Part shown: positions 23,722 to 33,075 of the stretch, in pieces
Layout: the number at the start of each line of letters is the position of its first letter
How positions within the stretch are numbered: the first letter of the stretch is position 1
Source: Astrocystis sublimbata
Taxonomy: Eukaryota > Ascomycota > Sordariomycetes > Xylariales > Xylariaceae
NCBI GenBank assembly: GCA_022453515.1
Contig: JAJNNY010000080.1
Span: 1-64,000 of the forward strand
Direction: 5' to 3'
DNA: 64,000 nucleotides
Notes under the pieces: model-generated
Told to the model about the DNA's origin: nothing
What the model saw: only the letters and a program-made list of their open reading frames with translations
Databases searched by the model: none
Made by a program: the position numbers and the translations under genes

Positions 23722-25211
23722 ATGGCGAAACCGCGCACCAAGAAGCGCACCCATGTGGGCGCCAGCCACCCAAAGCACCAGGCGGCCCCAACCGGCCGCA
23801 AAGCTATCGTGGACCCCAAGAGCATGGTCATCCGCATCGGCGCCGGCGAGGTCGGCTCCAGCGTCAGTCAGCTAGCCAAGGACGTCCGTATGGTCATGGA
23901 ACCCGGCACCGCCAGCCGGCTCCGCGAGCGCCGCGCAAACAGGCTGCGAGACTATGTCACCATGACCGGTCCGCTGGGCGTCACCCATCTCCTGCTCTTC
24001 TCGCGATCCGACTCCGGCAACACGAATCTCCGCGTCGCCACCACCCCGCGAGGCCCCACCCTCAACTTCAGAGTCGAGAAGTACTCTCTATGCAAAGATG
24101 TGCGCCGCGCCCTGCGGCATCCGCGCGGTGGTGGCAAGGAGTATGCCACGCCTCCATTGGTACGCATCGCACACACATAAAACGAAAACCGAGTTTTGCC
24201 CCTGCTCTCGACAATTGCTAATCTGTGTCACTGCAGCTGATCATGAACAACATATCCACCCCCGGATCCGACGCCACCTCCGCTGTCCCCAAACACCTCG
24301 AGACCCTCACGACCACCATCTTCCAATCCATGTTCCCGCGCATAAACCCCCAGACGACACCCCTCAAGTCAATACGGCGGGTGCTCCTCATAAACCGAGA
24401 AAAGGCCACCGACAAGGATGACGGCACCTTCGTCCTGAACTTCCGCCACTTCGCCATCACCACCAAGGCCGCCGGAATCTCCCGGCCGCTGCGCCGGCTC
24501 AACGCCGCCGAGAAGATCCTGAACGGGAAGAACACTGGAAAAGGAGGCGTCCCGAATCTGGGCAAGCTGGAGGATATCGCCGACTTCATGATCGGCGGCG
24601 AGAATGGTGAGGGCTACATGACGGACGCCACGAGCGGGAGCGAGGCCGACACCGATGCCGAGGTCGAGGTGCTGGAAGACGCGCCGAGAAAGGTCTCCAC
24701 CAAGGGGCGTGCTGCACGCGAGAATGGAGATGATGGTGAGGAGGACGATGAGAGGGTAGAGCGGCGCAAGGTGAAGCTTGTCGAGCTTGGCCCGCGCATG
24801 AAGCTGCGGTTGACAAAGGTCGAAGATGGTCTCTGTTCGGGTAAGGTCATGTGGCATGACCATATTCACAAGTCTAAAAAGGAGATCCAGGAGACGGATA
24901 AGCGGTGGACCCAGAGGACGAAGGAGAAGGAGGCCAGGAGAAATTTGCAGAAGGCCAATGTTGAGAAAAAGAAGAAAGAGCGAGCAGCTAGTGGGGCTAA
25001 ACGCCCTGCGAAGGAGGGCGAGGAGGGCGAGGAAGGTGAGGACGACGATGATGAGTTCGATGGTAATAATAGTGATCTATTTGATGAGATGATGGATGAT
25101 GATGGCATGGATAGCGAGGGGCTGGCTGGTGATGGTGAGGCAGCTCTAAATGAGGCGATGGACGAGGACGATGAGTGGGAAGACGAGAGGGCAGAGATTG
25201 CTGGTTCATAA
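23722..25211 (+). CDS. SSF1: Ribosome biogenesis protein SSF1/Ppan (Brix domain)
   Basis: Nucleolar Brix-domain factor for assembly of the 60S subunit and 27S pre-rRNA processing. Exons 23722..24159 and 24237..25211 (intron GTACGC...CAG) give 470 residues. The start MAKPRTKKRTHVG matches the Ssf1 N-terminus; an ATG 24 nt upstream is in frame but less likely. The Brix domain spans about residues 30-340: KSMVIRIGAGEVGSSVSQLAKDVR, RRANRLRDYVTMTGPLGVTHLLLFS, and the closing VELGPRMKLRLTKVEDG. A basic coiled segment (KEKEARRNLQKANVEKKKKE) and an acidic tail follow, both usual for this family. It is divergent from RRP3, so 40S and 60S assembly factors sit side by side. Confidence 0.94.
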
Positions 25212-27427
25212 AAGAATATACCCGGTGCTGAGAACACCAGACCATTTTGTTTTATCTTCAAACGTTCCATATTATGATGCATTTGCGAGTGTCCTCTGCA
25301 GTCAATCAAGCCGATGATTTGAAGGTGAGATCTCATACTAGCAGCTTTATCGAGGTAATTTCGACACTTGACAGTTCGTTCTTGATACCGCTTTCTTGTG
25401 TCCAGAAATTTTAAGTCGGTCATGCTTTCACGCCATCACGTACACTCAAATTGTATATAGGCAGGATATACTACCAGTTCTGGGAGATATTCATACTGTC
25501 CAGCTTTCATTCCTTAATTCCTGCAAGGAAATCCTTAGGGATGTCTCACAATATCTCCCGGCGTAATGGCGATGATCGCGTACAACACTCGTTCTGAAGT
25601 CGACCAACCTTATCGTCGGCGCCTTCTGACCTATAGTTGAGTGAAGTCAAAAGTTAAGGATTCACGTCCTGAGTGCAAATGTGTTTTTCGGAAGGGATCC
25701 CTCGTGGTCTAGGCTTGCTGCTATTTTTTTTTTTTTTATAATTGAGAGGTGGCCTCGTCCTCATGTTCATGCTATTGGATTTATGCAATGGCAATTTACG
25801 TACGTAGGGCAGTCCATGTTTCGAGCCAGTTCGTGTACATTCATGTGAATACCCAACTACTCTTTGGTCCTGTTCAAACAGCACATTGGCAATGGTCGAT
25901 TTCTCGAGCTATTCGTATATATTCGAGCAATAGTATCGGGGACATGCTAAGTGGATGCACGGTCTAGGTTCTAAAGAGCTCGGCATGTTATGTTTTTCCT
26001 AGCATGTAGTGGTCGGGTCGGGTCTCGTAGTTGTTATCTTCCATCCTTGCCGCTCACGTGAGACTTTCCGGATTTCGAATCCCTTATGGGGTAAAGACTC
26101 TGTATACATGCCCCTTGGCTGAGTCCAGAATCTCGCCTGGCCGTGTGCTCTAGAAGCAGCCGTGGCTTAATTCTGAACCTTCTAGTGCACGCGACAATTT
26201 ATTCACAAAGGATACATACATACAGTGCTAGTCTAGTGGCTACCCTGCATCACTTCTGTTTTTGATTTGTAGTAGTATGAGAGTGCGTACCCCGTAGATA
26301 AAGTAAAGTAAAGTAGATAGATAGCACAGATTGCGGAAGGATTTCTCGGAGATACCTAGCTCGAGCCCCGGGAGACTTGGCAGGTCACTGATTGATTGAT
26401 TTGATTCGATCGCGGGCGCTAGCTGATTACTTTATTTTGCCTTTGGGGGCAGAGGCGGAAATAAATCCGGCTTCAAAGAATACCAAGAGGCCGTTGGAGA
26501 GCGGACTGTCAGACCGGCTGTTGTTGATTTGCAATATTTTAGGTAGGCCTTTCTTTGGGCGACCTTGGTGATTTGGCAGCTACTGATTACCTCAAAGAGT
26601 CCTGGAATTTCCATTTGTCTCACGCTTTGACGTATACTCAAACTGTGGGAGATAGGTACATATTTATTCGTGAGGTAGCTCAGTGAAGTATTCGGCACCA
26701 CTAAGATATCAGCTTCTCCAGTCTCTGGGCCCTAGATCTCGACTGTCATGCAGATATACTGATTAGAATCCACACGTATACATAGAGACCAGTCCAGATT
26801 CTTCAATTCTTTCGGCTCGACACAAGCAAGGCATGGTCTCGTGACCTAGGCGCCGTTAAAATCAGTCCAAAATAGAGCGCTTTTTCGGCCTCCTCCCTAT
26901 CTGGTTCAAGCGGGATGTGCTGCTGGGACTAAGTAATAAGGCTGCGTAGATTGGATAGGAAAAAGAGGCCAAGGATTACGGAAAGCCCATCCCACCACAC
27001 GTGGTGTCGAGCGATCACCCAGACATATGTATTGTACCCGTCTCGGTCAACCACGGATCTCGCCTACCAGCGACAGACTAATGCAATGTCACCCCAAGCT
27101 GCAGCAATGCTGGCTCCCGATGTAGGTAGGTAGGCGAGTAGGTAGGTATGCATCCGTGATAGAGCTATATCGGTCCCAAGCATCTGGTAACAAGACACAC
27201 TATACCGAACGAAGTGCTACGTTGCTGGGGTGTGACTTCAAAGTAGTCACAATGGCCATGGCTTTCCCGCCTCTGTGTTACATACGTTCATCTAGCACGG
27301 AGATATCAAGTGTTCAGTAGTATGTTTGTTTAGCAGTTGAAGGCTTGGGCTAAGCGATTTCAACGCCCTTTGCTTTGGGGGCGGGGAATATAATCGATTC
27401 TACAACGCCGCAACAATCACCCAGGTT
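25212..27427. other. Intergenic region upstream of the tRNA gene
   Basis: 2.2 kb without a supported gene. It has a T13 tract at about 25725-25737, short AGTA/GATA repeats near 26300-26320 and a GTAG microsatellite near 27122-27145. Frames on both strands are short and unrelated to known domains. Confidence 0.45.
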
Positions 27428-27558
27428 TCCTCGGTGGCGCAATTGGCTAGCGCGTCGTAAGTTGCACCTTTCAAATAAAACTCACGATGCAATGGTGTCT
27501 AACAGAAGAACAGTGACTGTTAATCAGGAGGTTGAAAGTTCGAGCCTTTCCCGGGGAG
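27428..27558 (+). tRNA. tRNA-Asn(GTT) with a non-canonical 57-nt insert
   Basis: Removing 27457..27513 leaves a complete 74-nt cloverleaf. The acceptor stem is TCCTCGG (27428-27434) with CCGGGGA (27551-27557), and the discriminator is G27558. The D stem is GCGC/GCGC. The anticodon stem is TCTGA/TCAGG with a seven-base loop CTGTTAA (anticodon GTT at 27519-27521). The variable loop is AGGTT and the T arm is GAAAG-TTCGAGC-CTTTC. Internal A box (TGGCGCAATTGG) and B box (GTTCGAGCC) are intact, and a T6 Pol III terminator lies at 27563-27568. The insert lies between positions 28 and 29, inside the 5' strand of the anticodon stem. Eukaryotic tRNA introns lie between 37 and 38. The GTT anticodon and stem sequence are typical of eukaryotic tRNA-Asn. 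Confidence 0.85.
27457..27513 (+). other. Spliceosomal-type intron-like insert inside tRNA-Asn
   Basis: 57 nt beginning GTAAGT and ending AACAG, with a CTAAC branch-point sequence at 27499-27503, 10 nt before the 3' border. These match the introns of protein genes in this window in length and signals. The borders are fixed by the cloverleaf, because only exact GT...AG excision restores the TCTGA/TCAGG stem. Confidence 0.8.
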
Positions 27559-27562
27559 TTGG

Positions 27563-27568
27563 TTTTTT
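27563..27568 (+). terminator. RNA polymerase III T-run terminator
   Basis: Six consecutive T residues, four bases after the predicted tRNA-Asn 3' end. This is the expected position and form of a Pol III terminator. Confidence 0.8.
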
Positions 27569-30500
27569 GGGGGGTTGCTATCTGTTGAGATCAGGATCCA
27601 ATTTTTCGAGCTTTAAATAAAAGGTCTCGTCAAGTCTGTCCCGAGCCTGTTGCTATAATTCGCATAAATACATGAGGATATTAAACGAAGATAGGGAGGG
27701 GTCTAGATAGGTAAATGTCAAAATGATTACATGTGACAACGGCATCCATGCCTATGATGGAGCAGGAATTGAGTGATAAGTTGGCCGCCTAGATTGCAGG
27801 GTATCGCTATATTAGATCTGGGCTTCCGTTCCTTTAACTTTAGCTCACGGAGAACAGGTACGAAAAGGGGCTAGTAAACTGATAAGGTCCCGCGTCCGAG
27901 GTTCCACCTGTTTGTTTGTCTGAGATGCTCGTTCCGGTATCCTTGAGTATCTACCTAAGATGTCTTGGATGTAAGGGAGAGAGGGCGAGATATTGCCAGC
28001 CACAGGCCTTATGACTGTTGTGCTGTTCGAGCTGTTCGCAGAGCTGATGACTTGCGGGTAAAGACAGTCTGACAATTATTGCAGCAATAATATTGCCCGC
28101 CCATCCTAACAATGTGTATCCTTTCAATCAGAATTCAAGAGTCCGCGTGCGACATTACTTGATGTATAACAGTACGATGTCGCTAATTTTTACCTCGGAG
28201 GGCAAGGCGAACACTTTATCGAATGTAGGTATACAGCAGTGGATAATGTCATCGTCTCGCCTTAGTATCGACGTAGTGTCGATCTAATGTGAGTCGTGAA
28301 TCTGATCACATCTGCCTGCCTGCATGCAATACTGAAGGGAACCGCCAAGTCTTGATCCCACACGTGAAATGCAATGTGAAGTACAGAACATTGCCATGGG
28401 CATGATGTGGTACGGTATGTGCAATACGCATAGAAGCGTGCGCCAAGGAAATAGTTGATGCGCAAACTGATATTTGCCCCAACGCCCTGACAGCTAACAC
28501 CTACCTACGTAAAAGCTGTCCACTATGGGGACGCGGGGAATCTGATGTTGCCATCCGAACGGACAATGTTGGAAGCGGAGCTTGGAGGTTTGAAGACCGT
28601 GAGAGCTGAGCCTAGCTCCCTGTCTCGCCTGTCTAAGCCATTTCAAGCCAAACTTTAGTGTCGCGTGATAGACATCGTACATCAGACAACCGGCGGCAGC
28701 AATGAATAAGGGAATTGATGAGCAAGCAGATCGATCTGGCGCCTGTATTGCTAATGCTCAATTGCTGACCGGGCTTCCGGGTTTTGCAGCTGCCCACCAA
28801 CCATAAAAACTACAATGTCGGATCATACTTACTGAAGTAGTTTTGTCTTGTCGCGGCGAGGGGTAAAAAAAGAAGAAAAAAGACAAGACAAGACAAGACC
28901 CTTTAAGGCGGTGATCAAGAGAATTGCTTCAGTTTATGGCGTGGTTCCAGTATATGTTCTTTCGAATCACTGCCTCTGGCTTCGCTTCTCATGTCTGTTG
29001 TTCCATGAATGCTGGTATAAACGCACGCCGCATATCCTTGCAACCCTTATCTTGAACGTCGTCGAATGAAACGTGATAGATGGCATCGGAGTTGACGGCT
29101 TGGCACATTTGATCCATGTCTCTGGCATTCTGTTGGACCAGGATGGCTGGGCTGGCCGAGAAGAACCGAGGCAGTTGGCCCCCCGTGCAGCTGCAAGAAC
29201 CACTGTCGTCAGCGCAGACCGCACGCACATTGCCCCCGACGATCGATGATGTATGTCGTCGTGCCGGCAGGCTGCTCACGCTTCGTGCGACATCAGTCGA
29301 CGATTTGATTCAACGGGTCGCATCGTCGGTCGCATCATATGTCCTTTTTAATATATGCAGGACGTAGATTTGCGATGGAAGATATTTGTCTTTTGTAACA
29401 GTGCTTATTGTCTATCATGATGCGTAACTTCGTTCTACTCGGGCGAACTATCTGGGCTGTGTATATTGCGTTGGCTCCCTTGGTTGAGGCGTGCATTTGC
29501 AGCTTGCTTGCAGCAGCTGACACTTTTGTTGCCTCGTTGCAACTGCATTTCCTGCAGAGCTCCGTACAGTCGGTGTTTTTCTCCAAACTGTATTATTGAA
29601 AATAAATACGTGCCCATGCGATCAATTCAAGAGCAGTACAGGAACGGGTTGTTGATCGGTGCTTGTGGAACAATTAGATGACCTTCAACTATCCATCATG
29701 AGGCATTGGCAATGGCAGGTGGTTGACCGGTGAAGGGCCGGGCGATCGACTGCATCTCGGCAGCGCCATCGTAGCACCAAAAGTGACTGAGACTGACAGG
29801 TGACTTGCTTTCACTTTCGCCCCGATGCAACTACACGGTGATGAGGTTGACAATTGACTACCCACTCAGTGTGCGATGATCTAATTGTACTGTAGATAAT
29901 ACAACAACTGCATTTTATATCAGTTATCGTGGGCTAATCATGGGGATACAGCCCCCTGAGACATACACACAGTAGTTCATACGAGTAGCTATGGTCCGAA
30001 CCATGGCCCCAGCGCAAGCGCTACGCGTTCGATATAGTAACTTACCTAGATCAAAAGAAGAGAACTAAGAAGGAGGATAAAGTTTGCCGCACACTCCAAT
30101 CGACCAGTCTCTCTATTCGCGGCGCGCTAAAGAAGTTTTAGTGCTCTACAGCCGAGCTGTATTCGAGATAGCAAAATACTTGAAGCTAGATTGCAGATGG
30201 CTGTTCTCAAAGCCAAAAGCTCCGGGGTTTTAGGACTGTGTTCGCGAACCCACTGATAGGAAAATGGCACGGTGCAGTACCTGTGCCGCATGTCCTGTAG
30301 TTGTACCACACATGGGAATTATAGGTTGGGATGAACCGGATTGGAACCAGGCTCAGCAGTATTTAGGGGAACTCTGGCGAGCTGGCAGGGCAGGGCCACA
30401 AACCCTTACCCCAAAGTCCTGCTGCCCCAGTCGTGCGCCGTATCCGCTCAGTGGCGCCGCACGCAGTACGGCCTTCCGCTTCTAGAAAAGACCCCCCCAA

Positions 30501-30950: not shown

Positions 30951-33075
30951 ATGAGTTCCCCCGTGGAGAAAGGTCAGGCCCTGGATGCCAACTCGCACGA
31001 GGGCGTGAAGCCTGCTGTGGAGTCGCATCGCCACGAGCATACTCACCACAGCGGCGCCGCTGCTGATCACACGAATCACGCCCACGACGTCATGTATGTC
31101 GACACCACACAGCCGAGCCGCGTGCAGAGCTATGAGAAGAATGCCGACTTCACGAGCGCCGAGAAGGCCTCGCTCGGCACTGATGAGGAGATGGGCGACG
31201 TCGACCAGTCGCGTGATCACAACGACCCGGCATCGTCCACCGGCTTTCTCAAGAGGTGGTACCGGAAGCTGAGGCCTTTCGTCCACCTCTTCATCTGGCT
31301 TGTCTTTACCGCGTGAGTCTCGACTTTGTCACTCCTCGCCTTTCATGGCGAGGTGTTCCTCATCCCGTGGTGATACTAGCTAAATGCGAATTTGGCTTGC
31401 GCGCCAACAGTTGGTGGATCTTCGGTCTCATCAAGTTTCGCAAAACGAAGAACTGGTTAATTCCGTTCCTTGTCTATCTTGCCATCACCCTGCGCATCAT
31501 CTTCTTGTGGATTCCCGTCAGCTACATCATGCGACCAGCTAAGATGGTATGGCGCCATACCGTCTTCAGGGGCTACGAGATGATTCCCAAGGTTCTGCAC
31601 CGGCCGCTTGCTGCTGCCGGAACAGTCGCCGTATTCCTGCTCGGCACATTGGTACCAGCCGAATCTGGCGACAACACCAGGCTTGGTCGTCTTCAAGCTC
31701 TTTTCGGATTGGTTGTCATGATCTTTATCATGTCGGTCACATCGAGGAAGTTCTCTGCCATTCCCTGGCACACTGTCATTGGTAGGTAACAACCAATGTC
31801 TTCGGCGCCTAGCGTCATTTCTCATAGGAACGTGAGCTAAAACTCGTCCACAGGTGGAATGCTGTCTCAGTTTATCGTTGCCCTTTTTGTGCTGCGAACA
31901 CATGCAGGTTACGATATCTTCAACTTCATTTCCGAATTGGCGCGAACCCTCCTGGGTTTCGCCGATCAGGGTGTTGTATTTTTGACGGATGAGAGCGTGC
32001 CCAAACTCCCCTGGTTCTTCATCGGTGTCATCCCGCCTATCATATTCTTCATTGCGCTCGTCGCTCTCCTCTTCCACGTTGGTTTAATCCAGTGGTTCAT
32101 CGGCAAATTTGCCGTCTTCTTTTTCTGGACCCTGCGTGTTTCCGGAGCCGAAGCCGTCGTCGCGTCAGCTACTCCTTTTATCGGACAGGGTGAATCCGCC
32201 ATGTTGATTCGACCTTTCGTTCCGTATCTCACCCTGGCCGAGATCCATCAAGTTATGACTTGCGGTTTCGCCACGATTGCTGGTTCCGTGTTGGTCGCTT
32301 ATATCGGATTGGGCTTGAACGCTCAGGCTCTGGTCTCGTCCTGCATCATGTCTATTCCGGCGTCACTCGCTATCTCAAAGATGAGATATCCCGAGACGGA
32401 GGAGTCGCTGTCTGCTGGAAAGGTGGTTGTTCCCGAGGACGAGGAGGACAAGGCCGCGAACCCACTCCACGCCTTCGCTAACGGCGCTTGGCTGGGTCTC
32501 AAGATCGCCGGCACAATTGTGGCCACCTTGTTGTGTATCATTGCATTTGTCGGTCTCATCAACGGCCTCCTCACCTGGTGGGGTGGTTACTGGGGTATCA
32601 GCAACCCAGACCTGACTCTCCAGTTCCTTCTCGGATACATCTTCTACCCCGTCGCCTGGCTCCTAGGTGTACCGCCAGGAGAGCTTCTCCAGGTTGGCGA
32701 GCTTATCGGCCAGAAGATCATCATCAACGAGTTTGCTGCCTTCATCGCCCTTACCACAGAGCCTCGGTACATGGCCTTGAGCCCTCGGGCCACTATCATT
32801 GCCACATACGCTTGCTGTGTAAGTCAATATCAGCCATCCATCAAACATCTACCAGGTACTAACGTGGGCATCTTCAGGGTTTCGGAAACATCGGATCTCT
32901 TGGTACACAGATTGGTGTTCTGTCCCAGATCGCCCCGGCTCGCAGTGGCGATGTCTCGAAGGTGGCTTTCTCGGCTCTGGCCGCCGGTGTTGTCTCGACT
33001 CTGACCTCTGCGGCGGTCGCTGGAATGGTGTATACCGATGGAATCGGAGCTGCTAAAGTGGTGCTCAACTCATAA
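30951..33075 (+). CDS. Concentrative nucleoside transporter (CNT family)
   Basis: Plasma-membrane cation-coupled nucleoside importer of the CNT/NupC family. Exons 30951..31312, 31411..31781, 31854..32818 and 32878..33075 join in phase to 631 residues. The N-terminal 105 or so residues are hydrophilic and His-rich. Multiple hydrophobic segments follow, beginning at LRPFVHLFIWLVFTA. CNT signatures are present: VSGAEAVVASATPFIGQGESA (substrate-site hairpin), GQKIIINEFAAF, which fits the family motif (G/A)XKX3NEF, and GFGNIGSLGTQIG in the last exon. A hydrophilic loop (PETEESLSAGKVVVPEDEED) lies mid-protein. Length and topology are as in fungal and animal CNTs. Direct substrate range (purine or pyrimidine) cannot be read. 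Confidence 0.93.

Follow-up and report, generated by a model that had tools for sequence, protein, structure and literature searches.

In teaching, the introns of tRNA and those of mRNA belong to two splicing worlds that are kept apart. The U6 RNA of S. pombe is a Pol III RNA with an mRNA-type intron that is removed by the spliceosome (PMC8917221), and fungal U3 snoRNA, a structured small RNA, has normal GT-AG introns, with interrupted and uninterrupted copies side by side (PMC5832005). According to the latter paper, from 2017, frequent interruption among small structured RNAs was known for U3 and U6 only. A title cited in PMC11782384 concerns an mRNA intron in fungal 18S rDNA. As for tRNA genes, inserts outside 37/38 in a red alga and in nucleomorphs are of the bulge-helix-bulge type or very short (3-24 nt; PMC4090602, PMC3978253). 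Within the same order, intron gain is reported from a related family, the Hypoxylaceae, in the form of introner-like elements and proliferating stwintrons (PMC8469720, PMC9024468), and the word tRNA is absent from the excerpts of these two papers. Introns of Fusarium have a median length of 57 nt (range 42-529), and 91% of them have the branch site CTRAY; the branch-site motif classes CTRAY and TTRAY applied to the inserts below are taken from the same source (PMC5677156). Spliceosomal introns in small Pol III RNAs are known, and no precedent was found for tRNA as a host-gene class. The sequence-only reading of the present locus knew of no established case in a tRNA. Among the open-access literature matches listed, no earlier paper reports a tRNA gene with a spliceosomal intron; given this scope, the absence of precedent is not proof of novelty.

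The window, i.e. the whole 64-kb stretch that was analysed, corresponds to C169:1-64000 of a 42.6-Mb assembly with 189 contigs. Between SSF1 (23722-25208) and a nucleoside transporter gene (matches 30951-33069), whose proteins are closest to those of Xylaria scruposa (SSF1/Brix, 84%) and Xylaria curta (96%), respectively, it contains a tRNA-Asn(GTT) gene interrupted within the anticodon stem, between standard positions 28/29 (linear 29/30; Table 1). These two proteins indicate that the organism is a Xylaria-like fungus. No ORF of at least 100 aa is listed over 27428-27558. The A and B boxes, assigned by their consensus, are read from the sequence together with a T-run terminator, as in a functional tRNA gene. 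Regarding upstream signals, in the 65 tRNA upstream regions of this genome TATAW is most frequent at -50 to -59, so that the TATAA of the window lies off the usual distance. The predicted minimum-energy fold of the precursor pairs part of the intron with exon 1.

Table 1. Coordinates of the interrupted tRNA-Asn(GTT) gene and of the related introns and genes. Plain coordinates refer to the window.
Feature	Location	Strand	Details
tRNA-Asn(GTT) exon 1	27428..27456	+	5' strand of acceptor stem, D arm, and standard positions 26-28
A box TGGCGCAATTGG	27435..27446	+	sequence; assigned by box consensus
57-nt spliceosomal-type intron	27457..27513	+	excision scan, signal shuffles, no second genomic copy found
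5' splice site GTAAGT	27457..27462	+	sequence
Branch-site motif CTAAC	27499..27503	+	branch A 11 nt from last intron base
3' splice site CAG	27511..27513	+	sequence, excision scan
tRNA-Asn(GTT) exon 2	27514..27558	+	standard positions 29-73
Anticodon GTT	27519..27521	+	ARAGORN, excised form
B box AGTTCGAGCCT	27537..27547	+	sequence; assigned by box consensus
T6, Pol III terminator-like	27563..27568	+	sequence
TATAA at -39, possible TFIIIB site, weak	27389..27393	+	
Nucleoside transporter intron, 59 nt	32819..32877	+	GTAAGT..CTAAC..CAG; exon ends from Xylaria homologues
Interrupted tRNA-Lys(CTT), L092	C13:4239		insert 60 nt
Interrupted tRNA-Lys(CTT), L091	C88:18075	-	gene and 60-nt insert same as C13
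Interrupted tRNA-Lys(CTT), L093	C24:402087	-	insert 55 nt
Interrupted tRNA-Lys(CTT), L094	C102:448548	-	insert 61 nt
Interrupted tRNA-Lys(CTT), L127	C117:196945		insert 67 nt
U6, L046	C1:11589-11744		68.8 bits; 57-nt mRNA-type insert
U6, L047	C130:152546-152701		68.8 bits; 57-nt mRNA-type insert
U6-like, diverged, uninterrupted, L048	C135:326268-326365		56.6 bits

Joining 27428-27456 to 27514-27558 gives a 74-nt tRNA-Asn(GTT) with all 21 stem pairs (7+4+5+5) formed, and the initial claim that removal of the insert leaves a perfect 74-nt tRNA followed by T6 is thereby confirmed. In a scan of 1020 excisions (68 starts x 15 lengths, 50-64 nt) only the GTAAGT...CAG one yielded 21 pairs, while the next best two had 20. 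Thus, the insert borders, for which a single register is possible, are fixed by tRNA structure independently of the splice signals. A placement at 37/38 or an alternative excision was rejected on the same scan, which contained no better 37/38 cloverleaf of the kind that would have spoken against an intron. The splice signals themselves (GTAAGT, CTAAC and CAG) are present as first described, and at the borders set by the tRNA the combination of GTRAG, branch motif and YAG was equalled by 3 of 100,000 shuffles of the insert. The insert has the ends, branch site and length of a U2-type intron, and its exact removal restores all 21 stem pairs of the tRNA.

ARAGORN types the excised sequence as tRNA-Asn(gtt), whereas for the unspliced DNA, when run with introns allowed, it reports only a poor tRNA-Val. 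The latter was rejected as a candidate gene, since it would require a long variable arm and a 40-nt intron as well as non-standard pairs in the anticodon stem. The Rfam tRNA model scores the unspliced locus at 16.9 bits in a wrong register, below the cut-off of 29, and neither ARAGORN in bacterial mode nor Rfam at cut-off reported anything at the unspliced window locus.

According to the sequence-only reading, the insert was also identical in style to the protein-gene introns of the same DNA. This holds for the transporter intron, which carries the same three signals. The pattern GTAAGT-N34-54-CTAAC-N6-16-AG has 2 matches in the 64-kb window, namely the tRNA insert and this intron, with 0.19 expected, and at least two matches per window were obtained in 3 of 100 shuffles. 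The SSF1 intron is 77 nt long and reads GTACGC...CTAAT...CAG. Insert lengths of 57 nt (Asn) and 55-67 nt (tRNA-Lys, see below) are normal for filamentous fungi.

The genome contains four further tRNA-Asn genes (C103, C134, and two on C154), all of which have an ordinary intron of 10-11 nt at 37/38 that the window copy lacks. A DNA query with both spliced tRNA-Asn forms returned five candidates, all scored, corresponding to these four genes and the window locus. The two genes on C154 (129949-131772) face each other at a distance of about 1.8 kb. Exon 1 of the window gene differs from the other four at 2 of 29 positions, and the 28-nt core of exon 2 occurs at one genomic place only, with up to 3 mismatches allowed. 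Over the whole spliced tRNA there are nine differing sites, eight of which form four compensated base pairs (linear numbering: 6-68, CG to GC; 29-43, TA to CG; 30-42, CG to TA; 52-64, CG to AT), the ninth being A to G in the T loop. Among 200,000 random sets of nine substitutions none reached four compensated pairs, and all pairs were kept in 897. The cloverleaf of the window tRNA-Asn is kept under selection, and the compensated pairs show long selection on the spliced tRNA form. Pairs 6-68 and 29-43 span exon 1 and exon 2, and base 29, the last of exon 1, shares one anticodon stem with base 43 only after removal of the insert. What these pairs date is the selection on the tRNA; they give no date for the insertion.

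This bears on the possibility that the window gene is a dead or dying copy, in which an intron-like piece landed recently and stays unremoved, too soon for decay to show. The four other tRNA-Asn genes would cover the need, and the insert is present at this single place and is undated. On the other hand, its splice signals are complete. With its compensated pairs, the copy does not look dead, and such an origin is considered unlikely.

The interruption is not confined to tRNA-Asn. For tRNA-Lys(CTT) all eight first-look candidates were scored; two T-arm-interrupted genes came from the genome tRNA list, and three more were found afterwards. In total, five of the eight genes are interrupted between positions 52/53, in the T arm, by GT-AG inserts, four of which are distinct; the three uninterrupted genes are located on C1, at C102:1309997, and on C189. 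The four distinct inserts start with GTAAGC, GTAAGT, GTAAGA, and GTGAGT, end with TAG, TAG, TAG, and CAG, and have the branch motifs TACTAAC, TGTTAAC, GACTGAC, and TACTGAC with the branch A 12, 12, 14, and 12 nt from the end, respectively. Each can be placed in four registers, GT-AG being one, and with all four registers allowed the signal test was passed by 2 (C13), 1 (C24), 7 (C102), and 0 (C117) per 100,000 shuffles. The end of the insert, AG directly before GTTCGA, leaves the B box downstream.

All 73 exon letters of the mature tRNA are identical across the eight tRNA-Lys(CTT) genes. The aligned inserts are 47-57% alike, for most pairs little or no more than shuffles, and the trailers 75-82%. 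Continued splicing would lead one to expect identical exons together with diverging inserts. On C189 there is a Lys copy that has truly decayed, with deletions in its acceptor and D arms, and no such acceptor or D-arm decay is seen in the five interrupted genes; that genes with such unlike inserts keep identical exons further argues against a dead copy. The tRNA is followed by CAATTCCT in the five interrupted genes and by CAATTCCC in the three uninterrupted ones, a split that suggests one gain or loss, then duplication and drift.

The structured 3' trailer is conserved in all eight tRNA-Lys(CTT) genes (L001, L002, L003, L091-L094, L127). In it CCCGATGC or CCTGATGC (one variant, CCTGGTGC) can pair with GCATCGGG of the tRNA, and a second hairpin lies further along, with varying stem letters and pairing kept. 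The loci on C13 and C88, 4 and 18 kb from the contig ends, respectively, have the same gene and insert and near-identical flanks, and are perhaps a recent segmental duplication.

The conserved trailer could be taken to favor a Pol II transcript or another non-coding RNA, with exons that resemble tRNA by chance and an intron, from which no tRNA is made. The A and B boxes, the T6 stop, and the compensated cloverleaf speak against this view, as does the identity of the interrupted Lys exons to the only tRNA-Lys(CTT) genes found, and it is regarded as very improbable. A tRNA-type intron at an unusual position, cut by the tRNA-splicing endonuclease, has its parallel in the algal systems. The statement of the sequence-only reading that nuclear tRNA introns sit at 37/38 is correct for most, with exceptions in nucleomorphs and a red alga (PMC4090602, PMC3978253). 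The positions found here are likewise different from 37/38, namely 28/29 (Asn) and 52/53 (Lys). The borders, however, form no bulge-helix-bulge: 0 of 4 central-helix pairs are found for Asn, and 0, 2, 2, and 1 of 4 for the Lys inserts, counts that come without a positive-control yardstick. Cleavage by the endonuclease would also leave the GT..AG ends and branch motifs of all five distinct inserts unexplained, and it appears highly improbable. Spliceosomal removal is the preferred reading.

As for the origin of the inserts, DNA searches, which are insensitive to diverged copies, found no second copy of the Asn insert in the genome and the four Lys inserts only at their own five places. An introner-like origin, for which a search of the genome had been proposed, is not borne out, with the Asn insert at one place only. 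The inserts were also compared pairwise (21 pairs; splice-site ends trimmed off, branch site retained; 200 shuffles each). The two U6 introns described below are 88% alike, and for most of the remaining pairs the likeness does not exceed that of shuffles. The likeness to the U6 introns was reached by 1 and 2 of 200 shuffles for Lys C117 and by 3 and 11 for Lys C24; corresponding values are 7 of 200 for the Asn insert against Lys C13 and 10 of 200 for Lys C24 against Lys C117. A duplicated segment was rejected as a candidate: 26900-28200 matched only itself, in a weak search that also left the known tRNA-Asn relatives unreported.

Pattern searches added little. The combined branch-site and B-box pattern, which cannot match the window locus because its T stem departs from the pattern, gave 40 matches versus 62 for the control, and among 30 loci obtained with it a paired T arm is present in seven (six tRNA-Val and an odd tRNA, L040). 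The B-box pattern gave 30 matches versus 26 for the control; ARAGORN finds 10 tRNA genes in these 30 loci, and the three other loci of this pattern with four T-stem pairs are not tRNA-like. In the genome-wide tRNA family search the best 63 of 1291 candidates were scored and 39 of 62 places examined, and with the joined query for 24 tRNA types (Phe, Trp, and several others outside) the best 40 of 96 candidates were scored. With this coverage of other tRNA types, the total of at least six interrupted tRNA genes (one Asn, five Lys) is a lower bound. They lie on six contigs and have different inserts, and shuffles rarely pass the signal test, which leaves an assembly artefact or chance similarity, conceivable in that one assembly only is concerned, with negligible probability.

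Several other tRNA-like loci were observed along the way. Those at C129:91895-91906 (L118) and C161:127780-127791 (L124) are odd, mutually similar genes with the D arm GTGGTGTAATGG, which ARAGORN either leaves undefined or assigns to tRNA-Pyl(cta), with an intron of 33 nt. At C171:12419-42973 two pairs of back-to-back tRNA-Val(AAC) genes are separated by about 28.4 kb.

Regarding U6, three matches lie above the cut-off among the best 47 of 2232 candidates scored. The mRNA-type introns that the sequence-only reading mentioned for fungal U6 genes occur here as well, in the two best-scoring genes (C1 and C130). Both inserts follow ACAGAGAAGAT, start with GTAAGT or GTAAGA, and end with CAG; the branch motifs are TTGAC or CTAAC, and each insert contains a B-box-like stretch. 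Distances from the branch A to the 3' end are 11, 12, 12, 14, and 12 nt in the tRNA inserts and 12 nt in both U6 inserts. Should the two interrupted genes be the functional U6 copies, the spliceosome of this fungus would itself depend on the splicing of a Pol III RNA.

Based on these results, the locus is probably a nuclear tRNA-Asn(GTT) gene that is alive and that has, in the anticodon stem of its precursor, a U2-type spliceosomal intron. Of the two outcomes initially considered, the one in which the tRNA depends on the spliceosome is supported, and further strengthened by the compensated pairs and the five GT-AG Lys genes, with excision itself inferred, whereas the case for recent interruption of a possibly dead copy is weakened by the same pairs and by interrupted Lys genes with identical exons. 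The splicing reading rests on the exact anatomy, the constraint on the spliced form, the splice signals, the recurrence in tRNA-Lys, and the interrupted U6 genes. Interrupted tRNA-Asn and tRNA-Lys probably pass through the spliceosome. Pol III would use the A and B boxes for transcription and stop at T6, the short intron would be removed by the spliceosome by intron definition, as with fission-yeast U6, and the cloverleaf would fold fully and have its ends trimmed only after intron removal. It is also likely that the spliceosome is a regular tRNA-maturation machine in one fungal lineage, in which a long-lived tRNA-Lys(CTT) class and a tRNA-Asn are Pol III transcripts needing mRNA-type splicing, beside sisters that are spliced by the endonuclease (Asn) or uninterrupted (Lys). 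As sister genes without such an insert exist for both tRNAs, the cell may not depend on the interrupted copies.

The sequence case for spliceosomal introns in tRNA genes is strong, and it is function that we infer. If tRNA is indeed spliced by the spliceosome, the two splicing worlds would be joined, with a natural test of the spliceosome on a short, highly folded Pol III RNA and with spliceosomal introns living in genes that have no reading frame. Standard tRNA annotation would then miss or misname working genes.

In comparison with known systems, canonical 37/38 introns likewise interrupt the anticodon arm of tRNA-Asn, as in the four sister genes, but they are 10-11 nt long, in contrast to a 57-nt insert at 28/29 with GT-AG ends and a branch motif. 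The ectopic tRNA introns of Cyanidioschyzon and the nucleomorph inserts also lie away from 37/38 (PMC3978253, PMC4090602); unlike them, the inserts described here are neither of the bulge-helix-bulge type nor 3-24 nt long. The Hypoxylaceae elements form repeated families with terminal inverted repeats, whereas the searches with the present inserts gave no copies other than those of one duplicated Lys locus. Fungal U3 snoRNA genes resemble the tRNA genes of this genome in having GT-AG introns and mixed copies, U3, however, not being a tRNA. Fungal U6 genes, in S. pombe and others, likewise combine a Pol III gene with a short GT-AG intron and a branch site; they differ in that the host RNA is not a tRNA and that the B box lies inside the U6 intron here, while the boxes of the tRNA genes are exonic.
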